A stretch of 64,000 nt of DNA from NCBI GenBank assembly GCA_030430495.1, contig JAUIKM010000012.1:62001-126000 (forward strand). The letters are read 5' to 3'. Positions 27,393-54,600 of the stretch are shown here, in pieces. This stretch comes from a bacterium (GTDB lineage: Bacteria > Bacteroidota > Ignavibacteria > Kapaibacteriales > UBA7675). The first letter of the stretch is position 1. Each line of letters opens with the position of its first letter. Under the pieces are notes generated by a model. It saw only the letters and a program-made list of their open reading frames with translations, made no database searches and was not told the origin of the DNA. The position numbers were made by a program, and so were the translations under genes.

Positions 27393-27522
27393 TAGCAAAG
27401 CCTGGGTATCACGTCGTATTCCAGCGTTTTTCTGGCACACAGACAGGTCTCTCGAAAAAGATTACAACAGATAATTGAATCAATTCATGCTGTATTCCCT
27501 CAACAATCAAGGACAAATCAAC

Positions 27523-35257: not shown

Positions 35258-35902
35258 ATGCACACAGCACTGGTAGCAGACGACCATCAGATTCTTCGCA
35301 GCGGCCTGAAACTCTTCCTGACATATAGTATGGACATGGAAGTCACCGAGGCTCAAAATGGGGAAGAAGCGCTTGCGCAGATAGCAAAGCGGGATTTTGA
35401 CATCGTACTGCTTGATCTTTCCATGCCGGGGCGTGCGGGGCTCGACCTCTTGAAAAGTCTGCGCAGCGCAAAATCTGACATGCCCATTCTGATATTAAGC
35501 GCCCAGCCGGAAGAGCGCTATGCTGTTCGGGCACTCAAAGCCGGCGCCAGTGGTTACGTGGACAAGTCGGCCGACACAATTGAGTTAATGACGGCTATTC
35601 GCAAGTGCCTGGCCGGAGGACGTTATGTAAGCCCATCTTTGGCGGAAAAGCTGATCGAGGATGCCGCCAGGGAATCCGAGGATCTGGCCGCGCACGAAAC
35701 GCTGTCTGACCGCGAGTTTCAGATCTTGTGCCAGATCGGTTCCGGCAAATCTGTCGGTGGCATCGCGAAGGAACTGCACCTGTCGGTAAAAACGATCAGC
35801 ACGTACCGCAAGCGCATTCTGGAGAAGATGAAACTCGCCACCAACTCCGAGTTGATGCAGTACGCTCTGAAGCATCGGCTGCTTGAGAAGGTAACCGACT
35901 AG
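35258..35902 (+). CDS. NarL/LuxR-family response regulator 2
   Basis: 214 residues: receiver domain with D8/D9, phosphoacceptor D53 (VLLDLSMP) and Lys in GYVDKSAD, then a LuxR-type helix-turn-helix (about 147-205, LSDREFQILCQIGSGKSVGGIAKEL). It is only distantly similar to regulator 1. It is transcribed alone, with its own promoter and a terminator 38 nt after the stop. It lies between the OmpA-type gene and the first of four T9SS paralogs, but no sensor kinase is nearby. Which signal it reads, and whether it controls the paralogs, cannot be told from the sequence. Confidence 0.92.
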   Translation: MHTALVADDHQILRSGLKLFLTYSMDMEVTEAQNGEEALAQIAKRDFDIVLLDLSMPGRAGLDLLKSLRSAKSDMPILILSAQPEERYAVRALKAGASGYVDKSADTIELMTAIRKCLAGGRYVSPSLAEKLIEDAARESEDLAAHETLSDREFQILCQIGSGKSVGGIAKELHLSVKTISTYRKRILEKMKLATNSELMQYALKHRLLEKVTD

Positions 35903-35940
35903 GTTCAAACAGTCAATTCCGCTGATTTCTACGAGATTTT

Positions 35941-35982
35941 GGGGCCATGTGGAAAATTTGCACATAGCCCCATTTGATTTTA
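35941..35982 (+). terminator. Terminator after response regulator 2
   Basis: GGGGCCATGTG (35941-35951) pairs with CACATAGCCCC (35961-35971), with one mismatch, around a 9-nt loop. ATTTGATTTT follows. Confidence 0.7.
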
Positions 35983-36088
35983 AAGACAGGCCTTTCTAAC
36001 TTCCAAGCTTGTTGCATGCCGTTTACAGCCTGAAACTGAGATATTCAAAAGAATTCGCAAAGAACCGATAAGATTGGGGAAAACTTTT

Positions 36089-36115
36089 TGTAACCCGCAA
36101 AATTATTGTGTGTTC
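36089..36115 (+). promoter_or_regulatory. Conserved upstream element of P1 (ECF-like promoter)
   Basis: TGTAACC, 14 bp, TGTGTTC. The first bases of TGTAAC and GTGTT are 21 apart, exactly as at 40936, 45943 and 51061. The AAC-containing upstream half and the spacing resemble ECF-sigma promoters. It lies 165 nt before ATG 36254, closer than in the other copies (about 305 nt). Confidence 0.6.
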
Positions 36116-36177
36116 TGTCGCGGAGTTTGGCTCTAAATCGATGATTTTTAACGGGTTAATCCCCGAGCAACCCAAGT

Positions 36178-36253
36178 ACCTGCAGAGCGACGATATCTGT
36201 AAATCTGTGTGAATAAACATTGTTTCTTTATCCTGCACCTTTTGGAGCATTCT
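36178..36253 (+). repeat. P1-type leader, shared with P4
   Basis: From ACCTGCAGAGCG to TTTGGAG and the start codon, this 76-nt leader is repeated with few changes before P4 (51546-51619). It includes the RBS GGAG (36244-36247). The match shows that P1 and P4 were duplicated together with their leaders. Confidence 0.8.
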
Positions 36254-39200
36254 ATGAAACGTGCATTTCTAGCTGTCTTGGCCTTGACTTTTCTCGGTAG
36301 CATCCCTCTGGTTGCCGGTGGAAAAGGCTCGGCCGATGACCTGTTGAGGCGAAGCGCGGGAGCGTCGTACCCTCAACCTTTCGACACCGAGGCTGATTGG
36401 CCGCGCACGTCGCCGCCGATTTCCACCGGGTATTACATTGTGGATAGTGAAGATGGCGCCGGCGATCCCTATACGCCGAAGCCCTCCGAGCTGTTTGTCG
36501 ATACCACCACCGAGCGTGGTACCTGGCGTCGCATTATCTCCGGCCCGAATCAGTTTCCGGCCGAATACTGGGATTCGTTTGAGGAAGGACACATGTACTT
36601 CCGCAACCCCGGTAACCAAGACGACTCAACTGACAACGCCTTCGCGGGTCCGATGCGCATCGGTTTCCCGTTCTATTTCAACGGCGTTCGTTATGACAGT
36701 TTTTACGTCTCTACCAACGGTCTGATTGCGCTGAGCAATCGTCGCTATTTTTACGATTCGGAAACGGGCGAGCGCACGATTCCCGAAGGTCAGCCGACCG
36801 CATGGGATCCCGAAAGCGACGATACCCGTACGCGTAATGATCCCGATGCCAATGGATTGGAAGATCCTATCGCCGACGACTGGGGTTATACCTGGGTGGC
36901 TTGCGGTGGCGATCCGTCCAACCCGACCGGTGGTATCCGCTGGCCTACGAATTCCAACCTGACGGACTCCGGTCCTGGACCCGGTATCAACACGACGAGC
37001 ATCATTCAGGACGCGCCGATCATCGCGCCGTTCTGGGATGACTGGCAACTTTCGCAGTTCAACAATGAACTCAACCTGAAAGAAGACTACGGCCAGGTGT
37101 GGTTCAAGCGTTCGGTCAGCCGCGATCGTCTTACGATCTACTATTTGCAGCTCTCCCCGATTGGCCTGAAAACCAATCCCAACGGTGGTACGATCAGCTT
37201 TGGTGCGAACAACCGCATCGGCGAAGGCAGCCCGGCGTTCTATGTGAACGCTCAGGTAACCCTGAACCGCTCGGACTCGACCATCAACTTCCTGTACCGC
37301 TTCAAAAACCCGCCGCTGTTTGTGGTGGGCAACCGTCCCGTCGACCCCTGGGCCGTGGTGCGCTTCAATGCGACCGTTGGTGTACGTGGTAAAGCCCGTT
37401 ACATCGATGACAACTTCCAGGAGCAGCGTTACACGCAGCACTCGACCTACCTGTGGAACCGTAACGTGTTTGTTGTCGGTCCGGTTAACTCCGAAACTTC
37501 GACGCCGAACACTGACCTTGCCATCAAATTCAAGCAGTACAAAAACGTGCTGCGCGTGGTTCGCATCAACTACCTGATTCCGGATCCGACCGACGGCGAG
37601 TTTAACATCTCGGTTTCCGATCCGAACAACTACGAACTTCTCGTCGGTGATCAGCTTCTCGGTTCGCTGCAACCTGTAGCGATCTTCCAGAATCTGACGA
37701 ACGACATTCAAGGCACGCGCGGAGTCAACTTCCAGAAGCAGGATCTGACCTTCCGCACGCGTTTCAAAATCCAGAACGACATTCTGAATGACACGATCGT
37801 CTACAGCCGTCAGGTTTGTGTTGACAGCTTTGCGCTGGCCAACTCGAACGTTTCGGGTGTGCGTCTTGTCAACTTCGCCGGTGAGACCGTGCCGTTCAAC
37901 GGCAACGGCGTGCCGCCGTACGGCTTTGTGGAAGTGAAATTCCCGGCGTACAAAACCAACCAGTTCCTGCCGAACCAGATCGGTCGTCTGACCTCGCTGG
38001 TTATTGGTGAGCCGGCGCAGTGCTCCGGTTCGCGCGCAGGATATGGCGATGAGTGGGCATTTGATGATACCACGCGTATCCGTTTGTTTGGTATCCGCAT
38101 CCTCAACAGCTTCTCTGACAACGTGACCGACTTTAACTTCTCTCGTCGTGAAGGTACCCTTCCGTCGGTGAATAAGTGGGTTTCGCTGGGTGCTGAAGCT
38201 GTCGACGGCGATGCCAACACCTTCAACCCGCCGCCGCCGAGAGGTGAGTTCGCTTCGGCCAACAACGAGTTCGTTACTCTGAACTCGCCTGTTATCCGCA
38301 TGAACCGCTTTGACCTTGCCGGTAATGACCTGGCTCCGAATGGTGACGAAATCCGTTCGTTCCCTGTCGACCTGCGCGGCCGTTCCTCGGCGATCCTGTC
38401 CTTCTCGTACCAGCGTACCGGCGTTCCGCCGGACAATACGTTTGACCGCGGTTGGTCCGACGCTACCCTGATCGGCCCGGAAATCCGTGTCGTACAGGAC
38501 GGTAACTGGGAAACGACGGGGCCGGTACAGCGTCCCGACCTGCTTGAGCTGGATTTTGCCAACCCGAGCCCGGATGCTTACAACAACATCACGAACATTC
38601 AGCCGCGCGGCTGGGGAACGCACCCCAACCTGGCTGATCCCGACAAGCCGATCTCGAATAACCCCTCCTTCACCGTTTTCGGTGGTGGTGGTTTCCGTCG
38701 CGGCTGGCACGAGCTTAACTCCGACTCGGCTCTGACGAAAGCCGACGGTCTGCGCTACGATCAGTTCGACGATGGTAAAGACCAGGAATTCAACAAAGTT
38801 TTTGTTGAAATCCCGAGTTACATCCTCGACGCCCCGAACGACGGCGCTCGTTTCTTCCGCTTCAAACTGAGTGTTCGCGCAAACCGCAACAGCGTTCCGC
38901 CGAACCCGCAGGATGACGATGACCGCTTCTACATTGACAACACGGCGATCCTGTTCCCGACAGAAACGCCCGACCTGGAAATCAGCCTTGTTCGCGTGAA
39001 CTGGCCCTACACGATGGTTCCTGCCAGCCAGGCTTCCAGCGTTCCGGTTGAAGTGAAACTGTCCAACAACAGCATCATTCCTTCGCGCGCTTTCGCTGTT
39101 CAGGTTCTGATCAAAGAACGCGGTGCTTCCGATGAACTGCGCGTATACTGCCGCGCACAAACGCTGCCGTTCCTGCGTGCTCAAACTGAGTCGGTCAAAG

Positions 39201-40762
39201 CCTTCCCGGTATGGAATGCTCGCCAGACGCGTCCGGGTCGCTATATCCTGGCTGCTCGTATGCGCATCCCCGGCGGCGATCCCGAGCCTCTGAACGACAC
39301 GACTTACGGCGAATTCAATCTGGTCTTCGGTCAGGCGTTCGCTTACGATCCGCCGAACCCGACTGGTACGAACGACGTGCCGCAATTCTCGCAGGCCACC
39401 GGTAAAGGTCTTAACCTCTCCGGCGCCAACAGCGGTGGTTTCTCGGCTTCGACGGCCTTTGGCTCCGATGCTGGTAACCGTTCCGGTCAGATCGCAATGA
39501 AGTTCGAACTGTTCACGCAGGATACGATCCTCGGTTATCAGGCTCACTTCGGTAGCCTCAACTCCGATGTTCTGAATACGACCTACTCGATTTACGAAGA
39601 CGGCGGCGGAAGCCCGTCGGCAACGCAAGTTTCCGGTACGCGCATGCTGCGTCAACGTGGTCTCTATGACCTCGACGCTCAAGGCCGTCCGGCTACTTCG
39701 CAGTCCGACCCGATCTTCAACGAGTACGCCACTTACCTGCTGCCGAAAGAAGTAGTTCTTTCGCCCGGCAAATACTGGATGGCTGTTGCTCAGATGGGTA
39801 CGGAAGGTTTCGAACTTGGTGCCACGGCTTCCCGCATGGGTATGCAAACGACGAACTACACGACGATTCCGGTTCTCGGTGTCAGCGGTACCAGCCTTAT
39901 CATTGACAAAACGCTGCGCGAGCGCAACCGCTCCGGTCAGCTGATCAACGGTAGCTGGTTCGCATACGAAAACACCTATCGCAGTGGTGCGTGGTCGCAG
40001 TTCTCTCCGACCATTGGCAACCCGGGTTACGCGCACCTTGCGCACACCGGTCAGGTTGTCTTCTATCGCACTTACACGCGTGGTAGCTGGATTCCGCTGA
40101 TTCGCCCGTACTTTGGTGAGCGCGCCTTCAGCAACCCGCCGCAGTACGTTGACTTCGAAGAGTGCGAGAAATTCGCTCCGGTTGAACTGACCGACTTCGA
40201 CGGTGAATCGCTGCCGCCCGCCGGTATCGAACTGTACTGGGCAACGGCTTCGGAAACCAACAACGCCGGTTTCTACGTTGAGCGCCGCATGGCCGGTTCC
40301 GACAGCGAATACCTGTCGCTCGGCTTTGTGCAAGGTGCCGGTTCCTCGACGGCTCCGGTCAAGTATGACTTCCTGGATGCCGACGTATTCCGCGGTGAAA
40401 CCTACGAATACCGTCTGCGTCAGGTCGACTTCGACGGCTCTGTCTCCTTCTCGCGTGCCATCACGCTGGAATACGACTACGCCGACGCTCTGCAACTGGC
40501 CAACAAGCCGAATCCGTTTACGGAAATGACCGACATTACCTTCAGCGTCCCGAGCGCTTCCAACGTACGCCTCGAAATCATCGACGTACTTGGCAACTCC
40601 GTCCGCGTTCTGCATGACGGCGACATGCGCCCGGCTGCTGAGAAAACGATCTCCTGGGATACCCGCGACAACACGGGTGCCGAAGTTGCTGCAGGTGCTT
40701 ACATCTGCCGCCTGACTATCGGCGAAGAGACGATCGTTCGTACCCTGAACGTGGTGAAATAA
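36254..40762 (+). CDS. T9SS cargo surface protein, paralog P1 (highly expressed)
   Basis: 1502 residues. The start ATG 36254 has GGAG six bases upstream and a clean signal peptide (to about residue 20). The N-terminal region has a FNGVRYDSFYVSTNGLIALS block (about 140-165) and an APFWDDW block (about 260-275), weakly like nidogen-type beta domains. A long beta-rich middle of unknown function follows. Near 1310-1410 a fibronectin-like domain (ELYWATASETNNAGF ... YEYRLRQVDFDG) precedes a type A T9SS sorting domain (about 1416-1502, PNPFTEMTDITF to RTLNVVK). No TTA, CTA or TCA codon occurs over about 1330 consecutive codons, so an antisense frame stays open there. That bias implies very high expression. 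A major surface-layer-like protein is inferred; no enzyme motif was seen. Confidence 0.9.
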   Translation: MKRAFLAVLALTFLGSIPLVAGGKGSADDLLRRSAGASYPQPFDTEADWPRTSPPISTGYYIVDSEDGAGDPYTPKPSELFVDTTTERGTWRRIISGPNQFPAEYWDSFEEGHMYFRNPGNQDDSTDNAFAGPMRIGFPFYFNGVRYDSFYVSTNGLIALSNRRYFYDSETGERTIPEGQPTAWDPESDDTRTRNDPDANGLEDPIADDWGYTWVACGGDPSNPTGGIRWPTNSNLTDSGPGPGINTTSIIQDAPIIAPFWDDWQLSQFNNELNLKEDYGQVWFKRSVSRDRLTIYYLQLSPIGLKTNPNGGTISFGANNRIGEGSPAFYVNAQVTLNRSDSTINFLYRFKNPPLFVVGNRPVDPWAVVRFNATVGVRGKARYIDDNFQEQRYTQHSTYLWNRNVFVVGPVNSETSTPNTDLAIKFKQYKNVLRVVRINYLIPDPTDGEFNISVSDPNNYELLVGDQLLGSLQPVAIFQNLTNDIQGTRGVNFQKQDLTFRTRFKIQNDILNDTIVYSRQVCVDSFALANSNVSGVRLVNFAGETVPFNGNGVPPYGFVEVKFPAYKTNQFLPNQIGRLTSLVIGEPAQCSGSRAGYGDEWAFDDTTRIRLFGIRILNSFSDNVTDFNFSRREGTLPSVNKWVSLGAEAVDGDANTFNPPPPRGEFASANNEFVTLNSPVIRMNRFDLAGNDLAPNGDEIRSFPVDLRGRSSAILSFSYQRTGVPPDNTFDRGWSDATLIGPEIRVVQDGNWETTGPVQRPDLLELDFANPSPDAYNNITNIQPRGWGTHPNLADPDKPISNNPSFTVFGGGGFRRGWHELNSDSALTKADGLRYDQFDDGKDQEFNKVFVEIPSYILDAPNDGARFFRFKLSVRANRNSVPPNPQDDDDRFYIDNTAILFPTETPDLEISLVRVNWPYTMVPASQASSVPVEVKLSNNSIIPSRAFAVQVLIKERGASDELRVYCRAQTLPFLRAQTESVKAFPVWNARQTRPGRYILAARMRIPGGDPEPLNDTTYGEFNLVFGQAFAYDPPNPTGTNDVPQFSQATGKGLNLSGANSGGFSASTAFGSDAGNRSGQIAMKFELFTQDTILGYQAHFGSLNSDVLNTTYSIYEDGGGSPSATQVSGTRMLRQRGLYDLDAQGRPATSQSDPIFNEYATYLLPKEVVLSPGKYWMAVAQMGTEGFELGATASRMGMQTTNYTTIPVLGVSGTSLIIDKTLRERNRSGQLINGSWFAYENTYRSGAWSQFSPTIGNPGYAHLAHTGQVVFYRTYTRGSWIPLIRPYFGERAFSNPPQYVDFEECEKFAPVELTDFDGESLPPAGIELYWATASETNNAGFYVERRMAGSDSEYLSLGFVQGAGSSTAPVKYDFLDADVFRGETYEYRLRQVDFDGSVSFSRAITLEYDYADALQLANKPNPFTEMTDITFSVPSASNVRLEIIDVLGNSVRVLHDGDMRPAAEKTISWDTRDNTGAEVAAGAYICRLTIGEETIVRTLNVVK

Positions 40763-40792
40763 TTCACCTCCGTTCTACGGTAAATAGATAAG

Positions 40793-40824
40793 AAAACCCC
40801 CGAGCAGCAATGTTCGGGGGTTTT
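40793..40824 (+). terminator. Terminator after P1
   Basis: AAAACCCCCGA (40793-40803) pairs with TCGGGGGTTTT (40814-40824) around a 10-nt loop. The P4 gene has a close copy of this terminator. Confidence 0.9.
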
Positions 40825-40935
40825 CGATTTTAAACGCGTTTGCACACGATCTAATTACGTTCCTAACGCCGGCTTTGATTGTATTTATGCGCAAGACGGC
40901 TGAACGAGTAATCAGTCAATTGTATCTGCATCAGC

Positions 40936-40962
40936 TGTAACCTCAGCAGCTTATACGTGTTG
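40936..40962 (+). promoter_or_regulatory. Conserved upstream element of P2 (ECF-like promoter)
   Basis: TGTAACC, 14 bp, CGTGTTG; same internal spacing as the P1, P3 and P4-upstream copies. It starts 304 nt before GTG 41240. Confidence 0.6.
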
Positions 40963-41239
40963 ACCACTGACCCGACGCAGCCCCTCTCGTTTGCCCCCCA
41001 CCTTGATAGACAGCCTTCTCGATTGTTGTTGAGTGTTCAACAAACAACGGCCCTTTTGTCGCGAAACCGCAAGATTAACAGCGAAATGCAATTCAAATAT
41101 ACGTGCGCATCGGGCCGCCAGGCGTATGTTAACAGAATTGCAGCTTGCCGGACAGAGGCAGGCTGAGCCGTAGCACAAAGCTGCTGCATGCAGATCACTT
41201 CAAGACCGACTGACCAAAACACATAAGAAGGAAAACTGT

Positions 41240-44200
41240 GTGGGACGACTACTACTTTGTTTGATCTTCAGCGCAATACTGTTTTACCCGCTTGAACTCC
41301 TTTGCGCCGACAAACACTACAGCGACCGCGTCGCCGCTGCCACGAGCGGACAATCGATTCCCGGGCCTTTTAACCTTAAGACTGACTGGGAGCGCGACTT
41401 GCCGGCGATTTCGACCGGTTATTACATGCTCAACAGTGAAGACCCGCTGGATACGCCGCTGCGCCCCAAGGTGGCCGATCTTCTGCGACCTCTCGATAAA
41501 GAACCCGAGGCCTGGCACAGAATTGTCTCGGGGCCCAATCAGTTTCCAGCTGAACACTGGACGACTAACAAAGAGGGTTTTGCGTATTTCAGAAATCCGG
41601 GAGATCTGGATGATTCAACCGACAATGCCTTTGCGGGACCGATTAACATAGGTTTTCCGTACTATTTTAACGGCGTGCGCTACGATAGTTTTTACGTTTC
41701 GAGCAATGGTCTGATTGCGCTGAGCAACCGGCGCTACTACTACGATGCCAACGGCGAACGAACAATACCGGAGGGGAAATCCACAGCCTGGGACTCGGAG
41801 AGCGATGATACGCGTATCCGCACTGACGCCCGGAATACACAGGGTGTTAACGATGCTGTTGCGGACGATTGGGGTTACAATCACGTAGCCTGCGGCGGCG
41901 ATCCCGACGATCCGCTTGCCGGAATCAGGGCTGCGCGCAATACCGCGCTGGACGCCGATGGTTTTGCACAGTCCGGTATGATCGACGAAACTCCGCTGAT
42001 CGCCGCCTTTTGGGATGACTGGCAGCTGCCACAGTTTAACATCAACACCAACAAAGCGGAAGACTATGGCCAGGTGTGGTACAGACGATCGGAGGATAAT
42101 AAGGAGTTGACAATTTACTTTGTCAATCTCGTGCCGATTGGCACAAAACAACATCCGGATGCGGGATTGCCCGACATAGTGTTTGCCAATGATGCACGCA
42201 CGGGTGCGCAGCGTGCAGCGTTTGCTGTCAATGCGCACGTGACATTAAACAGCAAAGACAGCTCCGTTGTTGTTCTGACTCACAAGTATTCCACACCGAT
42301 CCTCATGATAAACAATCGCCCGGTGAGTTCATCCGCCATCGTTCGGCGGAATACCACCATGGGTCTGCGCGGACAAGCGCGCTACAAAGTTGACAAAGGG
42401 GAGGTTAAGCGCTACCTGCAGTATACCGAGGGATTGCGCGACGGGCAGGTATTTGTCCGGGCAACGGATATGCCGCACGAACTTGAAAACGTGCTCGGTC
42501 CCAACAATGCGATGCGATTTAAACAGTACACAAATCTGTTCAGTGCTGTGCGGATCGAATTCCTGACGAAAGATCCAAAAACACTCGAATACTCAGTTCC
42601 CGTTCGCGATCCCGACAACTATGAATTGCTGATCAGAGATCCCGTGCTGGGCGGCATTAAGCCGATAGCGATTTTCCAGAACATGTCCAACGACATCCAG
42701 GCTGTCGGCGGAGTTAACTACCGCGAGCAGGACGGACGATTCCGGGCCACATTTCAAATCAGCAATGAGATTGTAAACGATACATTGGTGTACAAGCGCA
42801 GCATCTGCGTCGACAGTCTGGCGCTTGCCGAAAGCAATGAAAGCGGCGTGCGCCTGGTTAATTACGAGGGCCGCACGTTGGAATTCGATGGCAACGGCGT
42901 GCCGCCCTATGGATTTGTGCAGGTGACATTCCCCGCGTTTGAAGCCGGTTTTCAGCATAACCTGACCGGACGTCTGCGCGCCGAAGCGCTGGCGCAGAAC
43001 CTGTCTTGCGCCGAAGTTAACCTTGGAGAAGAATGGACGTTTGACAATATTTGCAGTACTCGACTTCACGGGCTGCGGGTGTTAAACAGCTTCTACGACA
43101 ACGCGTCCGGATTCCACTACACGAGACGCAGCGGCGCAATTCCCGACAGCTACAAATGGGTCTCTCACGGCGCTGAAGCAGTGGACGGCAGAAAATACAC
43201 ATTTAACCCGCCGCCGCCGATCGACGTGGTAGAGGTGGCCGGTCATCCGGATGAGACCCTGGTTGGCCCGGTCATGCGACTTAACCGCATGGATGAGAAC
43301 GGTCGGGATCTGGCGCCGGGCGGCGATGAACTCGTTTCATTTCCGGTTGATCTGCGGGGAAAATCTTCCGCTGTTTTGTCCTTTTCATACCAACGCACCG
43401 GTATTCCGCCGACAAATACATTTGATCGCGGCTGGTCCGATGAAATCCGCGTCGGGCCCGAGGTGCGCGTGGTGGAGGACGGACAGTGGGAAACGACCCA
43501 ACCGTTGCAGGAACCGGACGTGCTGGAGCTGCACTTTGCGAATCCCAGCCCGGACGGCTACAACAATATTGTTAACATCCCAGCTGACGGCTGGAGCGTG
43601 CATCCCAACATTGCCGATCCCGATTTTCCCATCGTCGACAATCCGGCATTTACCGTATTTGGCGGCGGCGGATATCGGCGCGGTTTTCACGAGAACAATC
43701 CCGATTCGGCTCTGACGCGCAGGCAGGGACTGCGCTACGACTCACTCGATACGGGAAGCGATCCAGCTTTTGTTAAAGCCTGGGTTTGCATACCGGACTA
43801 TATACTGAATGCGCCCAACGACGGCGCTCGCTACTTCAGATTCAAGTTGAAAGTCAAAGCAAAAGACGACGGAATTGTTGAAAATCCACGCGACGATCCG
43901 GACGATTTTTACATCGACAACGTCGCGATCATGCCGCCGACGGAAATACCTGATTTGGAAGTGAGCATGGTGACAACCGGTCAGCAGAAGGAAGCTTATC
44001 CATATTCGGCATTTCCGGCCAGCCAGGCCGTAAATATTCCGGTGCAGATCAAGCTTGTGAACAACAGCGATCAGCCGTCGCGCGCTTTCAGTGTTTTGGT
44101 GGTTTTGAGAGAAAAGGACAATACGGACAAGATCGCATACTGTCGGACTCTGACGCTGCCTTTCTTGCGCGCCAAGGATGAGTCGATCAAACAGTTTCCG

Positions 44201-45757
44201 ACCTGGAATGCGCTCCGATCGCGTCCCCTGACCTATATTGCCGCGGTTGAGTTACGTGTTCCCGGTGGCGACCCCAATCCCTTGAACGACAGCACGAGCA
44301 GTTTGTATACGCTGGATTTTGCACATGTTCTGGCTTATGATAAACCGGACCTTGTCGGGACAAACAGCGCTGAAGCATTTGCACAAATAGCCGGCAAGGG
44401 CATAAATCTGCGGGCATACAACAGCGGACGCTTTTCATCCGCGACAGCATTTGGCGACGATGCAGGTAGTTCGAGCGGACGAATTGCTGTTGAATTTGGA
44501 CTGTCAATCCAGGATACAATTCTTGGCTATCAGCCATTTTTCGCGGCCCTGTCAAACGGCTCACAAGAAGTTCACTTTGCGATTCACGAAAATGACGGGG
44601 GAATACCGGCGGCAAATCCAGTCCCGGGATCTTTCATGCGGCGTGAACGCGGGCGCTACGATCTTGATGCACGCGAACAACCGTCCTCCGGCGCTTCCGA
44701 CGATTTGATTTTTGGCGAATACGCTACGTATTTACTGCCGAATTTGCTCGTTTTACCGCCCGGAAAATACTGGATGGTTATTTCGCAGACCGGGCGGGAG
44801 GGGCTTGAACTTGGAGCTTCGGCTTACCGCATGGGAATGCAAACGTTAAATTATACCACAAAGCCGGCGCCTGGCGAAAGCAGCGCCGGAATGATGCTTT
44901 CGCACAACTTCCGCTCGCGCACGCGCCAGGGGGAGTTGGTCAACAACAACCACTTTCTATATGTTAACAGCCTCTTCGGCGACGACTGGCATCCGTTCAC
45001 GCCGACGGTCGGAAATCCGGCCTACGCTCACCAGGATCACGCCGGAGAAATCAATGGGCTGCGAACATATACACGTGGATCGTGGATTCCGATGTTAAGA
45101 CTGTACTTTGGTCCCAGGACCTGGGCTGATACACCGGACTACATTGATCCCATCTACTGCCCGAACATACCGCCGGTTGAACTCGTCAGTTTTGACGGTG
45201 AAGCGCTGCCGCCCAGCGGAATTGAGTTGTATTGGTTGACCGCTTCGGAGTCCGGCAATGCCGGTTTCACTGTTGAGAGACGCACCGTCGGGTACGGTGC
45301 GGAGTTTAATTCCATCGGCTTTGTTAAAGGCGCCGGAACAGCAACTCGGCAGATAAATTACGATCTGCTGGATGCCGACGTTGAGCGCGGGACAAGCTAC
45401 GAATACCGGCTGCGCCAGGTTGACTACGACGGAACGACAGAGTATTCACGTTCAGTCATAGTTGAGTACGACTATGCCGAGGCGCCGGAGCTGAACAACA
45501 CGCCCAATCCGATAAGTGAATCAACGGATATTTCTTTCGGTCTGCCGGCGGGCGCGATGGTGCGACTGGAGATACTTGACGTGCTCGGCAACTCGGTGCG
45601 CTTGTTAACTGAAGGATACATGCTTCCAACGGCGCGCAAGACAATTCCCTGGGATGTTTGTGATGACGGAGGTCGCAAAGTGACGGCAGGCCTGTATTTC
45701 TGCCGTTTAACGGTCGGCGAACAGACGATTGTGCGCACGCTCAACGTCGTCAGATAG
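41240..45757 (+). CDS. T9SS cargo surface protein, paralog P2
   Basis: 1505 residues. GTG 41240 is the start: the RBS AGAAGGA is seven bases upstream and the frame opens with a signal peptide (LLLCLIFSAILFYPLELLCA). It is colinear with P1 over its whole length, with the same SFYVSSNGLIALSNRR and AAFWDDW blocks, the FNPPPP block near 650, the fibronectin-like domain (ELYWLTASESGNAGF) and a type A sorting domain ending VRTLNVVR. It is clearly more distant from P1 than P4 is. Codon use is ordinary for this genome, with FN and VN pairs mostly written TTTAAC and GTTAAC, so expression is probably lower than that of P1. It has its own upstream element and terminator. Confidence 0.9.
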   Translation: MGRLLLCLIFSAILFYPLELLCADKHYSDRVAAATSGQSIPGPFNLKTDWERDLPAISTGYYMLNSEDPLDTPLRPKVADLLRPLDKEPEAWHRIVSGPNQFPAEHWTTNKEGFAYFRNPGDLDDSTDNAFAGPINIGFPYYFNGVRYDSFYVSSNGLIALSNRRYYYDANGERTIPEGKSTAWDSESDDTRIRTDARNTQGVNDAVADDWGYNHVACGGDPDDPLAGIRAARNTALDADGFAQSGMIDETPLIAAFWDDWQLPQFNINTNKAEDYGQVWYRRSEDNKELTIYFVNLVPIGTKQHPDAGLPDIVFANDARTGAQRAAFAVNAHVTLNSKDSSVVVLTHKYSTPILMINNRPVSSSAIVRRNTTMGLRGQARYKVDKGEVKRYLQYTEGLRDGQVFVRATDMPHELENVLGPNNAMRFKQYTNLFSAVRIEFLTKDPKTLEYSVPVRDPDNYELLIRDPVLGGIKPIAIFQNMSNDIQAVGGVNYREQDGRFRATFQISNEIVNDTLVYKRSICVDSLALAESNESGVRLVNYEGRTLEFDGNGVPPYGFVQVTFPAFEAGFQHNLTGRLRAEALAQNLSCAEVNLGEEWTFDNICSTRLHGLRVLNSFYDNASGFHYTRRSGAIPDSYKWVSHGAEAVDGRKYTFNPPPPIDVVEVAGHPDETLVGPVMRLNRMDENGRDLAPGGDELVSFPVDLRGKSSAVLSFSYQRTGIPPTNTFDRGWSDEIRVGPEVRVVEDGQWETTQPLQEPDVLELHFANPSPDGYNNIVNIPADGWSVHPNIADPDFPIVDNPAFTVFGGGGYRRGFHENNPDSALTRRQGLRYDSLDTGSDPAFVKAWVCIPDYILNAPNDGARYFRFKLKVKAKDDGIVENPRDDPDDFYIDNVAIMPPTEIPDLEVSMVTTGQQKEAYPYSAFPASQAVNIPVQIKLVNNSDQPSRAFSVLVVLREKDNTDKIAYCRTLTLPFLRAKDESIKQFPTWNALRSRPLTYIAAVELRVPGGDPNPLNDSTSSLYTLDFAHVLAYDKPDLVGTNSAEAFAQIAGKGINLRAYNSGRFSSATAFGDDAGSSSGRIAVEFGLSIQDTILGYQPFFAALSNGSQEVHFAIHENDGGIPAANPVPGSFMRRERGRYDLDAREQPSSGASDDLIFGEYATYLLPNLLVLPPGKYWMVISQTGREGLELGASAYRMGMQTLNYTTKPAPGESSAGMMLSHNFRSRTRQGELVNNNHFLYVNSLFGDDWHPFTPTVGNPAYAHQDHAGEINGLRTYTRGSWIPMLRLYFGPRTWADTPDYIDPIYCPNIPPVELVSFDGEALPPSGIELYWLTASESGNAGFTVERRTVGYGAEFNSIGFVKGAGTATRQINYDLLDADVERGTSYEYRLRQVDYDGTTEYSRSVIVEYDYAEAPELNNTPNPISESTDISFGLPAGAMVRLEILDVLGNSVRLLTEGYMLPTARKTIPWDVCDDGGRKVTAGLYFCRLTVGEQTIVRTLNVVR

Positions 45758-45792
45758 GCGTTGGATTGCCGTGCTGAAGGTCGCTGAATGAA

Positions 45793-45833
45793 GTCCCCGA
45801 TGTGAGAAATTCGGGGACCTCCTTTGCTTTTTG
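45793..45833 (+). terminator. Terminator after P2
   Basis: GTCCCCGA (45793-45800) pairs with TCGGGGAC (45811-45818) around a 10-nt loop. CTCCTTTGCTTTTTG follows. Confidence 0.85.
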
Positions 45834-45942
45834 TCTGTCAACCGGTCCAAACAAACATGTAGTCCCCCGCACGCCAGATTGGCGCAGTTCTGCGGGGCAA
45901 TCTGCTTAAGTGCAACAAATTCAGCCACACGGGCAAACAAGC

Positions 45943-45969
45943 TGTAACCACAATCCCGCCCCGGTGTTC
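45943..45969 (+). promoter_or_regulatory. Conserved upstream element of P3 (ECF-like promoter)
   Basis: TGTAACC, 14 bp, GGTGTTC, followed by a block CCGTACCAT that is shared with the orphan leader at 51061. It starts 304 nt before ATG 46247. Confidence 0.6.
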
Positions 45970-46246
45970 CGTCGCCGTACCATACATTCCGATACTGAAA
46001 AGCCGCTTGCCCAAAACCGGCTGTTAAACAGTTGCGCGGATTAACTGGTTGCCATTGAATCGCAGTGCAGACGCCCGTTCGACTGCTTCAATGATGCAGC
46101 TACAGCCGCCGGTCCCACATTCAGATCGTTTAAACCGGACGTCAAGCCGTCCGTCCCGCTGGTTTGCAACGGCAATTTGTCGCAGTGTCCTGCCGTTGTG
46201 TTGACCGCATTGTTCACCGAAAATGTTAACAGCTACGGAGGCTGGG

Positions 46247-49200
46247 ATGACACATATGCTACGAACTATTATCCTGTGTTTGTTCGCTGTGTCCATGGCA
46301 GTTCCGCTTACGGCCAAAAAGGCGAGCGACAAAACTACAAGTTACACCGGCGGCCAGTCGATACCAGGGCCGTTTAATGCCGAATCGGACTGGGTGCGTG
46401 ATGAACCGGCAATCTCGACCGGGTACTACCTGCTCGACAGCGAAGATCCGTCGGAGTCGCGCCACGTGCCCAATCCGGCCAGGCTGCTGCACTCGCTTGA
46501 CGAAGAAGTGGATACATGGCATCGGATCATTTCCGGTCCAAATCAATTTCCACCTGAACACTGGACGACGCATCCGGAGGGACATGCGTATTTCCGCAAT
46601 CCCGGCGACGCCGACGATTCAACCGACAATGCTTTTGCCGGTCCGATCAGGATTGGATTTCCGTTTTACTTCAACGGTGTGCGCTACGACAGCTTTTACG
46701 TTTCGAGCAATGGCGTGATCGCGCTCAGCAACCGGCGCTATCACTATGACGAGAGCGGACAGCGAACAATCCCTGCTGGCGCTGCAACGGCCTGGGACGA
46801 TGAAAGCGACGACACGCGGCCGCGTACCGACGCACAGTTCACAAAGGGACTTAACGACGCCGTGGCCGACGACTGGGGCTTTTTGCACGTGGCATGCGGC
46901 GGCGACGAACGCGACCCGCTGGGAGGCATCCGCTCGCCGCGCAATACGGCTCTCAACGACGATGCAATAGACGGGTCCGACCTGATTGATGAAGCGCCGA
47001 TTATTGCGCCGTTCTGGGACGACTGGCATCTCTCGCAGTTTAACAGTCAAACCAATCGCGTGGAAGATTACGGTCAGGTCTGGTACCGACGTTCGCGTGA
47101 CAGGCGGGAGCTGACCATCTACTTTATTAACCTTTCGCCTCTCGGCAAAAAAGAACATCCCGACCAACCTTTGGCGGATATCGACTTCAAAGCGAATATC
47201 CGTCCCGGCGCCGCTACGCCGAACTTTTCCATCAGCGCTCAGATTACGTTAAAACGCGATGACGGCGAGATCGCTATTGTTCCGGAGCGTTACTCGGTGA
47301 ACGAGGTCGAGGTTGACGGCCGGCGTGTGAATCCCGCCGCGATTCTGCGCCGGAATGCCACTGTAGGCGTGCGTGGCAAGGCGCGCTACCGCGACGCACA
47401 GGGCGAGCTGCGGCGCTATTCACAATACACGGAAGCCGTGCACAACGGTCAGGTGTTTCTGCGAGAGGCCGAGTACCAACGGCACACCCAGAATACTATG
47501 GGAGCATCGACGGCGCTGCAGTTTGCACAACTGCGCAATGTGCTGCGCACGGTCAGCCTGCGCCTCTACGGCAAGAATCCGGTTGACGGCTCGTACACAA
47601 CTTCAACCGAAGATCCAGGCCACTCTGAAGTGGTGCCTGGAAACAAAGAACTGAGCAGTTTTCAGCCTGTCGCGGTATTCCAGAATCTTTCAAACGACAT
47701 CCAGGGGCCGGACGGTGTTAACTACCAGGCTCAGGACCTCAATTTCCTGGTCTCGTATCGACTGACGAATGATCTGCGCGCAGATGAAACAATTGCAACG
47801 CACATTCAATGTGTTGACAGCGCCGCGCTGGCCGATCCGGAAAACAGCGGGGTGCGACTGATTGACCATGCCGGCCGGCCGCTCGCGTTTAACGGCAACG
47901 GCCTGCCGCCCTATGCTTTTGTTGAAGTGACTTTTCCGCCGGTTGAAGAATTGACGCAGGGAAAACCGGAGCACTTTGGTCGGCTGAGTTTTACGGCGCT
48001 GGCTGAGCCCTACGCCTGTAACGGTCTGGAGTACCCCGAGCCGTGGTATTTCGACAATGTTAAAAAAGTGCAAATCTACGGCATGCGGGTGCTGAACGGA
48101 TTGTATGATAATTCTTCGGATTTTGACTACACCAAACAAACCGGGCCGCTTCCCAATGCCGGCATATGGCGCTCGGAGGGCGTGGAAATTGTGCACGGTA
48201 CAGCCAATACTTTTCACCCGCCGCCGCCGCGCGAAAGAGTCGATGTGGAAGAGAACTTCACTTTAAGTTATGATTCGCCCGTGATGCGCCTTAACCGCCT
48301 CGATCTGGACGGGAGCGACCTGGCGCCGGACGGCGATGAACTGATTTCCTACCCCATAGACCTGGGCGACGCGGAGACCGCGCTCTTGTCCTTTTCGTAT
48401 CAACGGACGGGACGGCCGCCGTCCAATACTTTTGATCGCGGCTGGTCGGACGAGCTGCGCGTGGGACCGGAAGCGCGCGTAATTCAAAACAGCGACTGGA
48501 CAACAACGCCGGTGCAGCAGCCGGATGAGCTGGAAGTGCACCTGGCTTATCCCGATGCGTCGGGATTGAGCAGCCTGGTTAACATTCCGGATGAGGGCTG
48601 GAGTGTTCACTACAATTCGCGGGACCCCGAGAATCCCATCAGGGACAATCCGGCGCTGACAATCTTCGGCGGCGGCGGGTATGGCCGCGGCTTCAGCGAG
48701 CAGGATCGCGACTCATCGTTGACCGCGGCGCAGGGGCTACGCTACGTTCCCTTCGACACGGGCAAGGACTTTGTCTTTAACAAAGGATTTGTTGAAATCC
48801 CGAGCTTTATGTTAAAAGCGGTGCAGGATGGGCCGTCGTTGCTGCGCGTCAGATTCGCCGTCAAAGCGCAAAACAACGGTCTGCCGGCTTATCCGCGTGA
48901 CGACGCCGACGACTTTTTTATCGACAACGTGGCGATAATGACTGACAAAGATGGTCCTGAGCTTGAGGTGAGCAGCGTTGAAATCGAACGAATTGCCAAA
49001 ACGGCCTTTCCGGCCAACGTCGCCAACTGCCTGCGACCTCTGGTGACGATTGTTAACAACAGTGAATCGCCCAGCCGTGCGTTTGCCTGTTGGCTGCAGA
49101 TAATGGAATTTGGCGATCCGCTTCTGCGCACGGTGTACTCACGCGCACAGACCTTGCCTTTTCTGCGCGGCCAAACTCAGACCGTTAAGGTGTTCCCGCA

Positions 49201-50731
49201 GTGGCACGGCCAGAATACCAGGCCGGGGCGCTATCAGTTGTGCGCAAACCTGAGGTTGCCTGGAGGCGATAAGAACCCGCTGAACGACGCCGTACATGGA
49301 TTCTACGACCTTCAGTTTAACGACTTCATTGCACACGACCATCCCCGGATTCAGGGCCGCAACGACGTGCCGCAATTCTCCGGCGTCGCGGGCAAGGGGA
49401 TTAACCTCGGCGCACAGAGCAGCGCTCTGTTTAACTCGAACAGCGCGTATGGCGCCGACGGCGGCGACGGCCCCGGCCGGATATTCGTCAGATTTGACAT
49501 TGACAAACCAGATACAATTCTGGGCTATCAGGCCTTTTTTGGCGGACTCAATACCCATGCCGATGCCGTTGAACTCGGCTTGTATCCCTCAAAGTCAGGC
49601 GCGCCTACGCCGTTCCCTGTTAAGGGCTCCGTTACAACCCGCAAGCGCGGCGACTTTGATCTGGACGCCGCCGGCGATTCCGTTACAAGCGATAAACTGT
49701 TTAATGCCTACGGCACCTGGTTGCTGCCGCAGCCGCTTATACTTGAACCCGGCGTATACTGGCTCTACATCAGTCAACTCGAATCGCGCGGCTTTGAACT
49801 GGGCGGCTCCGCGCATCGCATGGGCATGCAGACGCTAAACTACACAACAACGCCCGAGCCCGGCATCTCCGGTTTGAGCGTTCTGCTGGAAGAGGGGCTG
49901 CGGGAGATGAGCCGCGCCAATGATCTGCTTAACAGTCGTCGTTTTTTGTATGAAAACGAAGCGGGCAGTTTTGAACTCGTCGACTTTACACCGAACACAG
50001 GTAATCCCGGCTACGCGCACCTGACGCACGCCGGGCGCGTTGGCGAGCTTAACACTTTCAGCCGCGGCAGTTGGATTCCCATGCTGCGTCTGTACACGGG
50101 ATTCCGCGACTTCGCCGATCCGCCGATCTACACCGAAGAGTTTAAGCCGGTTGAACTGCTTGACTTTGCCGGATATGCCGTGCCGCCCACAGGTGTTGAG
50201 CTGCTGTGGAACACGGCGTCCGAGTTAAACAATGCCGGATTCTACGTCGAGCGCCGCCGAGCCGGCAGTCAGAGCGAATTTTCCTCACTGGGGTTTGTGC
50301 AGGGGAACGGGTCGTCGACGCTTAAACATCGCTACGACTTCCTGGATGCGGCGGCGCAGCGCGGTGCAAGGTATGAATACCGCCTGCGCCAGGTCGACTA
50401 CGACGGAACAATCGACTTTTCCGCTTCAGTTGTTGTGAGCTACGACTATACTGACGACCTGCAATTGACGAATACGCCCAATCCCTGCCGGTCCGGAACA
50501 AACATTATGTTTAACATTCCGTCGGCGTCGCACGTGCGGCTCGAACTCTATGATGCACTCGGAAATCCCGTTCGCGTTCTCCACGACGGCGTGTTGTCTG
50601 CCGATCCGCAGCACAGCATTGCCTGGGATACGCGGGACGACAATGGGGCGGAGGTGGCGGCCGGCGCTTACTTCTGCCGATTGACCATTGGTGAACAACA
50701 CAAGGTGCAGGCGCTGCAGGTATTGCGTTAA
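46247..50731 (+). CDS. T9SS cargo surface protein, paralog P3
   Basis: 1494 residues from ATG 46247, chosen for the RBS CGGAGG six to seven bases upstream and a signal peptide (RTIILCLFAVSMAVPLTA). An in-frame ATG at 46223 lacks both. It is colinear with P1, P2 and P4: SFYVSSNGVIALSNRR (about 140-160), APFWDDW, the FHPPPP block, the fibronectin-like domain (ELLWNTASELNNAGF) and a type A sorting domain (PNPCRSGTNIMF to ALQVLR). It is the most divergent of the four by eye. Codon use is like P2, with many TTTAAC and GTTAAC pairs. It has its own terminator, so the four paralogs are separate transcripts rather than an operon. Molecular role unknown. Confidence 0.9.
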   Translation: MTHMLRTIILCLFAVSMAVPLTAKKASDKTTSYTGGQSIPGPFNAESDWVRDEPAISTGYYLLDSEDPSESRHVPNPARLLHSLDEEVDTWHRIISGPNQFPPEHWTTHPEGHAYFRNPGDADDSTDNAFAGPIRIGFPFYFNGVRYDSFYVSSNGVIALSNRRYHYDESGQRTIPAGAATAWDDESDDTRPRTDAQFTKGLNDAVADDWGFLHVACGGDERDPLGGIRSPRNTALNDDAIDGSDLIDEAPIIAPFWDDWHLSQFNSQTNRVEDYGQVWYRRSRDRRELTIYFINLSPLGKKEHPDQPLADIDFKANIRPGAATPNFSISAQITLKRDDGEIAIVPERYSVNEVEVDGRRVNPAAILRRNATVGVRGKARYRDAQGELRRYSQYTEAVHNGQVFLREAEYQRHTQNTMGASTALQFAQLRNVLRTVSLRLYGKNPVDGSYTTSTEDPGHSEVVPGNKELSSFQPVAVFQNLSNDIQGPDGVNYQAQDLNFLVSYRLTNDLRADETIATHIQCVDSAALADPENSGVRLIDHAGRPLAFNGNGLPPYAFVEVTFPPVEELTQGKPEHFGRLSFTALAEPYACNGLEYPEPWYFDNVKKVQIYGMRVLNGLYDNSSDFDYTKQTGPLPNAGIWRSEGVEIVHGTANTFHPPPPRERVDVEENFTLSYDSPVMRLNRLDLDGSDLAPDGDELISYPIDLGDAETALLSFSYQRTGRPPSNTFDRGWSDELRVGPEARVIQNSDWTTTPVQQPDELEVHLAYPDASGLSSLVNIPDEGWSVHYNSRDPENPIRDNPALTIFGGGGYGRGFSEQDRDSSLTAAQGLRYVPFDTGKDFVFNKGFVEIPSFMLKAVQDGPSLLRVRFAVKAQNNGLPAYPRDDADDFFIDNVAIMTDKDGPELEVSSVEIERIAKTAFPANVANCLRPLVTIVNNSESPSRAFACWLQIMEFGDPLLRTVYSRAQTLPFLRGQTQTVKVFPQWHGQNTRPGRYQLCANLRLPGGDKNPLNDAVHGFYDLQFNDFIAHDHPRIQGRNDVPQFSGVAGKGINLGAQSSALFNSNSAYGADGGDGPGRIFVRFDIDKPDTILGYQAFFGGLNTHADAVELGLYPSKSGAPTPFPVKGSVTTRKRGDFDLDAAGDSVTSDKLFNAYGTWLLPQPLILEPGVYWLYISQLESRGFELGGSAHRMGMQTLNYTTTPEPGISGLSVLLEEGLREMSRANDLLNSRRFLYENEAGSFELVDFTPNTGNPGYAHLTHAGRVGELNTFSRGSWIPMLRLYTGFRDFADPPIYTEEFKPVELLDFAGYAVPPTGVELLWNTASELNNAGFYVERRRAGSQSEFSSLGFVQGNGSSTLKHRYDFLDAAAQRGARYEYRLRQVDYDGTIDFSASVVVSYDYTDDLQLTNTPNPCRSGTNIMFNIPSASHVRLELYDALGNPVRVLHDGVLSADPQHSIAWDTRDDNGAEVAAGAYFCRLTIGEQHKVQALQVLR

Positions 50732-50761
50732 ACATCATCTCAAATGCAACACTCGCGCACA

Positions 50762-50802
50762 CACGTCGCCCCGAGCCAAACTCCGGGGCGACGTGCTATT
50801 TT
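50762..50802 (+). terminator. Terminator after P3
   Basis: CACGTCGCCCCG (50762-50773) pairs perfectly with CGGGGCGACGTG (50784-50795) around a 10-nt loop. CTATTTT follows. Confidence 0.85.
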
Positions 50803-50814
50803 AAAGCCGGTGCG

Positions 50815-50887
50815 TTTTAAACAGCGCTTTGAGGCCTTGCCGCTGCGGCGGCCTCAGGCTTGGCGCGATTGTCTTGTTTGTCGCGCA
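50815..50887. repeat. Dispersed intergenic repeat A, copy 1
   Basis: It starts TTAAACAGCGCTTTGAG, passes through a CTGCGG...CTCAGGCT block and ends with GGCGCGATT, CTTG and TTGTCG. A close copy lies at 56264-56336, downstream of P4. The inner part can fold (GAGGCC with GGCCTC) in this copy, less so in the other. Confidence 0.75.
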
Positions 50888-50961
50888 GAGATCAGTCTCA
50901 CGTCTCCAGGTGAATCCGTCAACCCCAAGTAAACACGTGCCCAGGCCCGTCACATACCACC

Positions 50962-51022
50962 CGGTGACAAACAAAAAGAAAAAGCAAGCTGCCGAGCGGA
51001 GCGATGGAAGCGAAGCGCTCAG
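50962..51022. repeat. Dispersed intergenic repeat B, copy 2
   Basis: CGGTGACAAACAA, a purine-rich GAAAAAGCAAG block and GCGAAGCGCTCAG recur here in the same order as at 678-734, about 50 kb away. Confidence 0.6.
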
Positions 51023-51059
51023 AACAGCAGCGCAGCGTTGGAAGCCTTTTGTCGCGTAT

Positions 51060-51387
51060 CTGTAACCCGACGCGCCCCTCCGTGTTCCACTGCCGTACCA
51101 TGCCCTCAGATGTTGGAACAGCCGCCCGTCCGACGCCGTTTGTTTAAATCTTGCCCGTGAAAATTGTGTGTCATTGATCTGCGCGCCCTCCGCCCGTAGC
51201 ACGGGATCAATACCTGCACGAAAGTTTAAGCCCGAAAATCAGATCAACTTGCCCGGACCTTGAGTCATCTGCTCTGTTGTTGTTCAACGGAGCCGGAGAT
51301 GCGGTTCTGTGCCTCTGTACCAGCCACAGTACCACACACAAAATGTTAATAGTCACGGAGGCCGGCATGAAACACCAGTTAACAGAG
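51060..51387 (+). pseudogene. Orphan P3-type leader with dead start codon
   Basis: CTGTAACC at 51060 and an AAAATGTTAAT...CACGGAGG-x5-ATG end at 51367 match the start and end of the P3 leader (45942-46247), and the two have almost the same length (307 and 305 nt). After ATG 51367 the frame codes only for MKHQLTE and stops. I read it as the remnant front of a lost P3-like paralog, now lying upstream of P4. The middle of the leader has diverged, so the match rests on the ends and the spacing. Confidence 0.6.
51061..51087 (+). promoter_or_regulatory. Conserved ECF-like element in the orphan leader
   Basis: TGTAACC, 14 bp, CGTGTTC, with the same internal spacing as the elements of P1, P2 and P3. 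It is 559 nt upstream of ATG 51620, so it could still drive P4 with a very long leader. Confidence 0.55.
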
Positions 51388-51545
51388 TGATCGCGTAGAG
51401 TATCCTGCACGCGGTCTGCCGCAGGGTCGCACGCGACCGGATGGTCGGCTTGCCTGCATTGTGCGGAGCAACGCCGGACCACGATACAAACACCTCGTGC
51501 GACCGAAGGTATTGATGAACGCCTTAAACACCCGCGCAGGTTAAG

Positions 51546-51619
51546 TCCTGCAGAGCGATGACATCCGTAAGCCCAGGTAATTAAACAATTGTATTTGACC
51601 TGCACATTTGGAGTGTTTT
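51546..51619 (+). repeat. P4 leader, copy of the P1 leader
   Basis: TCCTGCAGAGCGATGACATC and the following bases up to the RBS GGAG (51610-51613) match 36178-36253, the last 76 nt before P1. P1's own TGTAACC/GTGTT element is not included in the copied part. Confidence 0.8.
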
Positions 51620-54600
51620 ATGAAACGTGTATTTCTGGCTGTTTTGGCCCTGATCTTGCTCGGCAGTATCCCATTGCTTGCCGGTGGAAAAGGCTCGGCC
51701 GATGAGCTGTTGAGGCGAAGCGCGGGAGCGTCCTACCCTCAACCATTCGACACCGAAGCGGATTGGCCGCGTACCTCGCCGCCGATTTCGACCGGTTATT
51801 ATATTGTGGATAGTGAAGACGGCGCCGGGGATCCCTATACGCCCAAACCGTCGGAGCTTTTTGTCGATACCACGACCGAACGCGGTACATGGCGTCGCAT
51901 TATCTCCGGCCCGAACCAGTTCCCGTCGGAGTACTGGGATGATTTTGCCGAAGGGCATATGTATTTTCGCAACCCCGGCAACAAAGACGACTCAACCGAC
52001 AACGCCTTCGCGGGTCCGATGCGCATCGGTTTTCCGTTTTATTTTAACGGAGTTCGCTACGACAGTTTTTACGTCTCGACCAACGGTCTGATTGCGCTGA
52101 GCAATCGCCGCTATTTTTACAATTCGGAAACGGGCGAGCGCACGATTCCCGAAGGTCAGCCGACAGCATGGGATCCTCAGAGCGATGACACACGTGCGCG
52201 CATTGATCCCGACGCCGACGGATTAAAAGACCCCATTGCCGACGACTGGGGTTATACCTGGGTGGCTTGCGGCGGAGATCCGTCCAACCCGACCGGCGGT
52301 ATCCGCTGGCCGACGAATTCCAATCTGACGGACTTCGGTCCCGGCCCCGGCATCAACACGACGAACATCATTCAGGACGCGCCGATCATCGCGCCTTTCT
52401 GGGACGACTGGCAGCTCTCGCAGTTTAACAATGAGTTTAACCTGAAGGAAGACTACGGCCAGGTGTGGTTTAAACGTTCGGTCAGCCGCGACCGCCTGAC
52501 GATCTACTTCCTGCAGCTCTCGCCGATTGGTTTAAAAACCAATCCGAACGGCGGAACGATAAACTTTGCGGAAAACAACCGCATCGGCCAGGGCAGCCCG
52601 GCGTTTTATATTAACGCCCAGGTGACACTCAACCGCTCGGATTCGACAGTCAACTTTTTGTACCGCTTCAAAAACCCGCCGCTGTTTGTGGTGGGCAACC
52701 GTCCCGTCGACCCCTGGGCCGTGGTGCGTTTTAATGCTACCGTCGGCGTGCGCGGTAAAGCCCGCTATATCGATGACAATTTTCAGGAGCAGCGTTATAC
52801 GCAGCACTCGACCTACCTCTGGAATCAGAATGTCTTTGTCGTCGGACCTGTTAACTCCGAGACTTCGACGCCGAACACCGACCTTGCCGTCAAATTCAAG
52901 CAGTACAAGAACGTGCTGCGCGTTGTTCGCATCAAGTACCTGATTCCGGATCCGACCGACGGCAAGTTTAACATTTCGGTTTCCGATCCGAACAACTACG
53001 AACTTCTCGTCGGCGATCAACTGCTGGGCGCAATTCAACCCGTAGCGATTTTCCAGAACCTGACGAACGACATTCAAGGGTCGCGCGGCGTTAACTTCCA
53101 GAAACAGGAGTTGACCTTTCGCACGCGCTTCAAAATTCAGAATGACATTCTGGACGACGCGACGGTTTACAGCCGTCAGGTCTGCGTCGATGAGTTTGCA
53201 CTCGCGAACCCCGAACTCAGCGGCGTGCAACTTGTTGACTTCGCCGGCGAACCCGTGCCGTTCAAGGGCAAGGGCGTGCCGCCCTATGGATTTGTTGAAG
53301 TGAGGTTTCCGGCGTATAAAACAAACCAGTTCCTGCCGAACCAGATCGGTCGTCTGACTTCGCTGGTGATCGGAGAACCGGCGCAGTGTTCCGGCGCGCG
53401 CATCACCTACGGCGATGAGTGGGCCTTTGACGACACCACGCGTGTTCGTCTGTTCGGCATCCGCGTCCTCAACAGTTTCTCGGACAACGTCACCGACTTT
53501 AATTTCTCGCGTCGCGAAGGCACACTTCCGTCGGTGAACAAGTGGGTCTCGCTGGGCGCCGAAGCTGTCGACGGCGACGCCAACACCTTCAACCCGCCGC
53601 CGCCGCGAGGCGAATTTTCGTCGGCCAACAACGAGTTCGTGACACTGAACTCGCCGGTGATTCGCATGAACCGCTTTGATCTGGCCGGCAACGACCTGGC
53701 TCCGAACGGAGATGAAATCAGATCGTTTCCCATCGACCTGCGCGGGCGCTCCTCGGCCGTCCTGTCCTTCTCGTACCAGCGGACCGGTGTTCCGCCGGAC
53801 AATACATTTGACCGCGGTTGGTCGGACGCCACGCTTATCGGCCCGGAGATCCGCGTCGTCCGCGACGGCAACTGGGAAACGACGTCGCCGGTGCAGCGTC
53901 CCGACCTGCTCGAGCTGGACTTTGCCAACCCGAGCCCGGATGCATACCACAACATCACGAACATCGGCACGCGCGGCTGGGGCACACATCCCAACCTGGC
54001 GGATCCCGACAAACCGATTACGGGCAACCCGTCCTTCACCGTCTTCGGCGGCGGCGGTCATCGTCGCGGCTGGCACGAGATGAACTCCGACTCGGCTCTG
54101 ACGAAAGCCGACGGGCTGCGCTACGACCAGTTCGACGACGGCAAAGACCAGGAATTCAACAAGGTGTTTGTTGAAATCCCGCGCTACATTCTCGACGCTC
54201 CGAACGACGGTGCACGCTGGTTCCGCTTCAAGATGACTGTTCGCGCGAACCGCAACAGCTCGCCGCCGGACCCGCAGGACGACGACGACCGCTTCTACAT
54301 CGACAACACGGCAATCCTGTTCCCGACGGAAAACCCCGATCTGGAAATCAGTCTTGTTCGAGTTAACTGGCCTTACACGATGGTTCCCGCCAGCCAGGCG
54401 GTCGAGGTTCCGGTTGAGGTGAAGCTGTCGAACAACAGCATCATTCCCTCGCGCGCCTTCGCCGTTCAGGTGATAATCAAGGAACGCGGAGCGTCCGATG
54501 AACTGCGTGTGTACTGCCGTGCGCAGACCCTGCCCTTCCTGCGCGCGCAGACCGAGTCGGTCAAAGCCTTCCCGGAGTGGAATGCTCGTCAGACGCGTCC

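Follow-up and report, generated by a model that had tools for sequence, protein, structure and literature searches.

Four giant paralogs behind a common element

The window (the whole stretch of 64,000 nucleotides analysed here) belongs to a genome made up of 80 contigs totalling 5.6 Mb, referred to below as G000, and carries four giant paralogs, all on the forward strand. P1 (36254..40762, 1502 aa) is a giant, predicted secreted protein with a C-terminal sorting tail: its last 110 residues score 25.4 bits against TIGR04183 (cut-off 23). P2 (41240..45757, 1505 aa) is 55% identical to P1, P3 (46247..50731, 1494 aa from the start used, with a further in-frame ATG upstream at 46223) 51% and P4 (51620..56125, 1501 aa) 91%. 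P2 has no Pfam match at E 0.001, and the Pfam family FlgD_ig is matched above its cut-off by P3 and below it by P4. By their C-terminal sorting domain the giants would be cargo of the type IX secretion system (T9SS); the assignment is clear for P1 and follows by homology for P2–P4. The window also contains an open frame of 4840 aa (12042-26564) that looks like a repetitive surface protein, and one of 772 aa in a similar style (27487-29805).

The search for named relatives of the giants gave only two, both from a Candidatus Kapaibacterium sp. MAG. Of the 41 genomes in a set made up of the window's genome and its relatives, 36 give strong matches to the giants (best E 1e-149 or lower), the remaining five (family f8) giving weak matches. 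In a sample of 148 genomes from the phylum, near-full-length matches are confined to the same order and to a single further member of the class (G159, 39%).

Searched on both strands, the window has four copies of the exact pattern TGTAAC-N15-GTGTT, one ahead of each giant. The predicted promoter of P1 spans 36089..36114 on the forward strand (−35 TGTAAC at 36089-36094, a 15-bp spacer, −10 GTGTT at 36110-36114, then CT). Those of P2 (40936..40961; −35 at 40936-40941, −10 at 40957-40961), P3 (45943..45968; 45943-45948 and 45964-45968) and P4 (51061..51086; 51061-51066 and 51082-51086) lie on the same strand. A preliminary description of this DNA had given these four positions, with the starts of TGTAAC and GTGTT 21 bp apart, and had noticed no intergenic copy elsewhere in the window; both observations are borne out, the four sites being the sole exact matches on either strand. 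Its general formula, TGTAACC-N14-nGTGTT, implies 22 bp between the starts and has to be replaced by TGTAAC-N15-GTGTT (equivalent to TGTAACC-N14-GTGTT). The C directly after TGTAAC is present at all four window sites but at just 22 of 56 sites over four genomes, and it therefore falls outside the core. Over the same 56 sites there is a mild bias to C and then T after GTGTT (33/56 and 34/56). When two mismatches are allowed the window yields 13 matches against 11.6 expected, so the signal resides in the exact core.

Spacer specificity and placement across genomes

The genome-wide motif search proposed in the preliminary description returned 16 exact copies in G000; the 12 beyond the window's four are all intergenic according to our own gene finder, and the reversed pattern gives three matches compared with 16. 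When the spacer is varied from 10 to 20 bp, G000 has 27 matches, 16 of them at N15 and 11 at the ten other spacers together. The N15 share is 14/27 in G002, which belongs to the same family, 15/33 in G011 and 11/40 in G001. Pooled over the four genomes, 56 matches at N15 stand against 71 over the ten other spacers (Poisson 6e-31).

Coding and intergenic calls were made with our own simple gene finder based on codon usage. In the four genomes 54 of the 56 N15 sites fall between genes, and at 51 the gene that follows is co-directional. As a control we used 40 of the 42 other-spacer sites from three genomes, leaving out the 29 sites of G001. In these three genomes no N15 site out of 45 is coding and 43 point into the next gene, compared with 25/40 and 10/40, respectively, for the control (Fisher 2e-11 for coding, 4e-12 for co-directional placement). 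In G001 two of the 11 N15 sites are coding, which counts against a promoter. Random occurrence at similar density, which would have spoken against a promoter, is not what is seen: N15 sites are enriched, intergenic and co-directional relative to other spacers, the pattern expected of a promoter and not of a random word. The element has an AAC-type −35, a −10 at fixed spacing and one orientation, as would be expected of an ECF promoter.

We may ask whether the four copies could be functionless, owing their likeness to the shared ancestry of duplicated leaders or to chance. The promoter region of P4 (51060..51125, forward strand) is indeed homologous to that of P3 (45942-46006), with 71% identity over 66 bp, and this pair is 41% alike outside the core. 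In the other five of the six pairs the similarity there is no higher than chance (24-28%), in line with the earlier remark that the bases between the half-sites differ, and the promoter regions of P1 and P4 give no alignment despite the 91% identity of their proteins. As the same placement recurs at 12 further genomic sites and the element is conserved in other genomes, this explanation has next to no probability; it is already contradicted by the genome counts, the spacer statistics and the placement controls.

The 3′ part of the P4 leader with the start of the gene (51518..51666, forward strand) is homologous to P1 (36150-36300, 74%). Judged from these alignments, the P4 leader (51060-51666) is a chimera of a P3-like promoter region and a P1-like 3′ end, and the core of the element persisted through the reshuffling. 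The leaders of the giants are 140-533 bp long, compared with 28 bp at the sigma gene described below, and we count this against a promoter. An Rfam search over 35900-51700 gave zero matches, and the idea that the leaders contain a riboswitch or another known RNA was accordingly rejected.

An ECF sigma gene behind its own element

The preliminary description had also proposed a search for an ECF sigma gene that fits the element. Sigma region 2 is matched by 33 proteins in G000, and the loci of 30 of them were fetched. Among these 30, an exact co-directional element lies upstream of one gene only, on contig C33 outside the window (L176:5019-5588, 189 aa), which has the element in its own promoter region, 28 bp before the start codon. 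The protein exceeds the cut-off of PF04542 (63.6 bits) and that of TIGR02937 (95.8 against 42.9), and has the composition of an ECF sigma factor, with regions 2 and 4 only in about 190 aa. Region 4 (PF08281) is found in four proteins of the 45-member set encoded downstream of the element, which by placement contains four sigmas.

The nearest homologs of the C33 sigma, in G002 (73%), G011 (60%) and G001 (60%), are reciprocal best hits by a wide margin, and each has the exact element upstream. The distance from element to start codon at the four genes is 24-31 bp, and the chance of an exact element upstream of the sigma gene is about 2e-4 per genome. In family f5, represented by three species of one genus and hence by about one independent event, the sigma gene and the giant gene are both preceded by a version with a 16-bp spacer (3/3), the assignment of the promoter to the giant gene being verified by a signal peptide downstream. 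This co-variation of the spacer supports the reading of the giants by the homolog of the C33 sigma. With the element upstream of the sigma gene in four genomes (N15) and three genomes (N16), the promoter would be autoregulated, a conclusion drawn from sequence alone.

In the seven genomes read, the gene after the sigma gene overlaps it by 4-14 bp. In three of four sequences its product has a single hydrophobic segment, around residue 100 (that of G001 falling below 1.6), and a model of its N-terminus (pLDDT 70) has as top PDB match RsiW bound to SigW, albeit weakly (E 0.52). Gene order, hydrophobic segment and this weak fold match suggest a membrane protein that is anti-sigma-like.

The element could instead be the operator of a transcription factor, for example of one of the LuxR-type response regulators encoded in the window at 26628-27269 and 35258-35902, the latter directly upstream of P1. 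Yet it is neither a palindrome nor a direct repeat, and a palindromic operator was rejected on this ground. Its orientation is fixed in 51 of the 54 intergenic N15 sites, it sits 24-31 bp ahead of the sigma start codons, at a distance that suits a promoter, and a search of the four intergenic regions of the giants for three simple types of housekeeping promoter found none. We therefore consider an operator very improbable.

Recognition helix and choice of sigma factor

In Corynebacterium glutamicum σD, Val169 is reported to meet the T of GTAAC, and σH, which reads GGAA, has a serine there (PMC6338062). We equated a column of the recognition helix with Val169 through an alignment on a shared arginine, not through structure. 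Among the 30 aligned sigmas of G000, TGTAAC lies no more than about 300 bp upstream of all six with valine at this column, compared with one of the 24 without it (p 1.2e-5). In 29 other genomes the nearest sigma has TGTAAC upstream in every case and carries valine in 26 and isoleucine in three, although these 29 are homologs of one another and thus non-independent. The link between valine and TGTAAC offers a simple predictor of which of the approximately 30 sigma genes per genome read TGTAAC promoters.

It also raises the question of whether P1–P4 have ECF promoters that are read mainly by another Val-type paralog, or by several ECF sigmas that overlap. Valine and an upstream TGTAAC are common to six sigmas of G000, the sigma gene on contig C16 has TGTAAC-N15-GTATT upstream, one base off, and a divergent exact site adjoins the sigma gene on contig C64. 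Against this, the exact co-directional element belongs to the C33 gene alone among the sigma loci fetched, the −10 upstream of the other Val-type sigmas differs, and the spacer co-variation in f5 tracks the C33 homolog. Another or a shared reader is therefore unlikely, if less so than an operator. As a separate observation, the C16 sigma gene has two divergent TGTAAC-N15-GTATT sites upstream (L044:721-809), and this −10 variant may mark a separate specificity.

Other genes behind the element

The 51 co-directional sites lead to 50 downstream genes. Five were excluded from the test for sorting tails (one shorter than 115 aa and four truncated at the end of a contig or stretch), and six duplicate control genes were dropped. 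TIGR04183 is matched at E 0.01 by 24 of the 45 complete downstream proteins, compared with 9/97 and 11/98 other genes from the same stretches (Fisher 1e-9). Enrichment holds after removal of all eight giants, each treated as matching (16/37, p 4e-6).

The giants of G002, G011 and G001 also carry the element, which is missing at one of the four copies in G002. Among 24 giant loci examined across the order, 18 have no TGTAAC within 800 bp, one G022 copy among them; an element upstream of all giants in the order was thus rejected.

Other predicted targets in G000 include a DUF3160 protein, two DUF7619 proteins, a TPR protein, a redoxin-like lipoprotein, an archease and a C25 peptidase. The DUF3160 protein, the TPR protein and the archease are among the non-sigma targets that recur between genomes. 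In two genomes the exact element lies far upstream of the archease gene (462 and 612 bp; L177:5176 and L145:1760). The site at L185:5111 is directed away from the C64 sigma gene and into a sorting-tailed protein, and a related protein in G002 (25%) likewise has a site beside another sigma gene (contig C160).

The C25 peptidase (L178:4867-10680, 1937 aa) is PorU2-like: it scores 264.6 bits against the model of the putative sortase PorU2, under the cut-off of 450, and its G002 homolog, likewise behind an element, scores 305.6. The PorU2-like homologs in G011 and G001 have no element, and the gene was rejected as a conserved target. The PorU genes proper are on contigs that have no exact site (C73 in G000, C119 in G002, C66 in G011, C195/C136 in G001). 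A literature search for 'PorU2' together with 'type IX secretion' found no paper.

The suggestion in the preliminary description that the sigma factor is dedicated to the cargo array fails on the 12 additional exact sites, among them the one ahead of the sigma gene itself and those of further secreted proteins. A regulon of the whole T9SS cargo was rejected as well: sorting-domain matches in G000 number at least 150, exact sites outside the array about 12. As predicted from its sites, the regulon takes in the operon of the sigma, further proteins with a T9SS tail and, in two genomes, the PorU2-like sortase.

A proposed circuit and comparison with known systems

That the element is an ECF-sigma promoter, as first proposed, is strongly supported by orientation, intergenic placement, spacer specificity, conservation and the sigma's own element. 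TGTAAC-N15-GTGTT is very probably the −35/−10 promoter of a single ECF sigma factor, the one whose gene is on contig C33. We infer from the sequences that this sigma binds the element and that transcription starts there, and we likewise infer its release from the membrane. An envelope signal would free the sigma from the product of the overlapping gene, a single-pass membrane protein; the freed sigma would then transcribe the operon it belongs to, P1–P4 and about ten further genes, many of which encode secreted proteins that carry a T9SS sorting tail.

A wider proposal, which we hold to be unlikely, is that the ECF circuit co-ordinates a lineage-specific protein coat, with the sigma driving its own operon, the giants as coat proteins (found almost only within this order), other sorting-tailed proteins and, in two genomes, the PorU2-like sortase. 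The outer TPR region of the anti-sigma would then gauge the secretion or surface state, and spacer length and sigma helix would drift together between families. From a motif seen by eye have come a named candidate sigma, a predicted promoter and, for an uncultured lineage, a regulon that can be tested; the result suggests that ECF sigmas in this group control selected type IX cargo.

A parallel with Porphyromonas gingivalis, drawn in the preliminary description, is loose. In the PorXY–SigP cascade an ECF sigma is linked to type IX secretion within the same phylum; but the reported SigP motif, C(T)AAA(G/C/T)A(T)A(C)T(A/G)A, is unlike the element when compared by eye, and the targets named are genes of the T9SS machinery, whereas here they are mainly secreted cargo (PMC4800418). 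We thus regard the analogy as weak. The window's genome also encodes a PorX-like protein with receiver and PglZ domains (contig C71, L188:799-2373).

ECF16 sigmas (Bradyrhizobium japonicum EcfF, Brucella BcrS) are reported to share the −35, tGTAACc, and the autoregulated arrangement of ECF sigma and anti-sigma, but their −10 is CGAA/GCGAAA and their targets belong to the oxidant response (PMC3420878, PMC8315932). The sites here have GTGTT in place of CGAA, by design of the search. The σD regulon of C. glutamicum is unrelated and from an unrelated phylum, and its −10 is given as GAT, compared with GTGTT here, of which GTT resembles the −10 of σH. It is alike in its −35, GTAAC, whose T is met by a hydrophobic valine of the recognition helix, and in the conserved promoter of its anti-sigma gene, GTAAC-15 nt-CTCGAT (PMC6338062).
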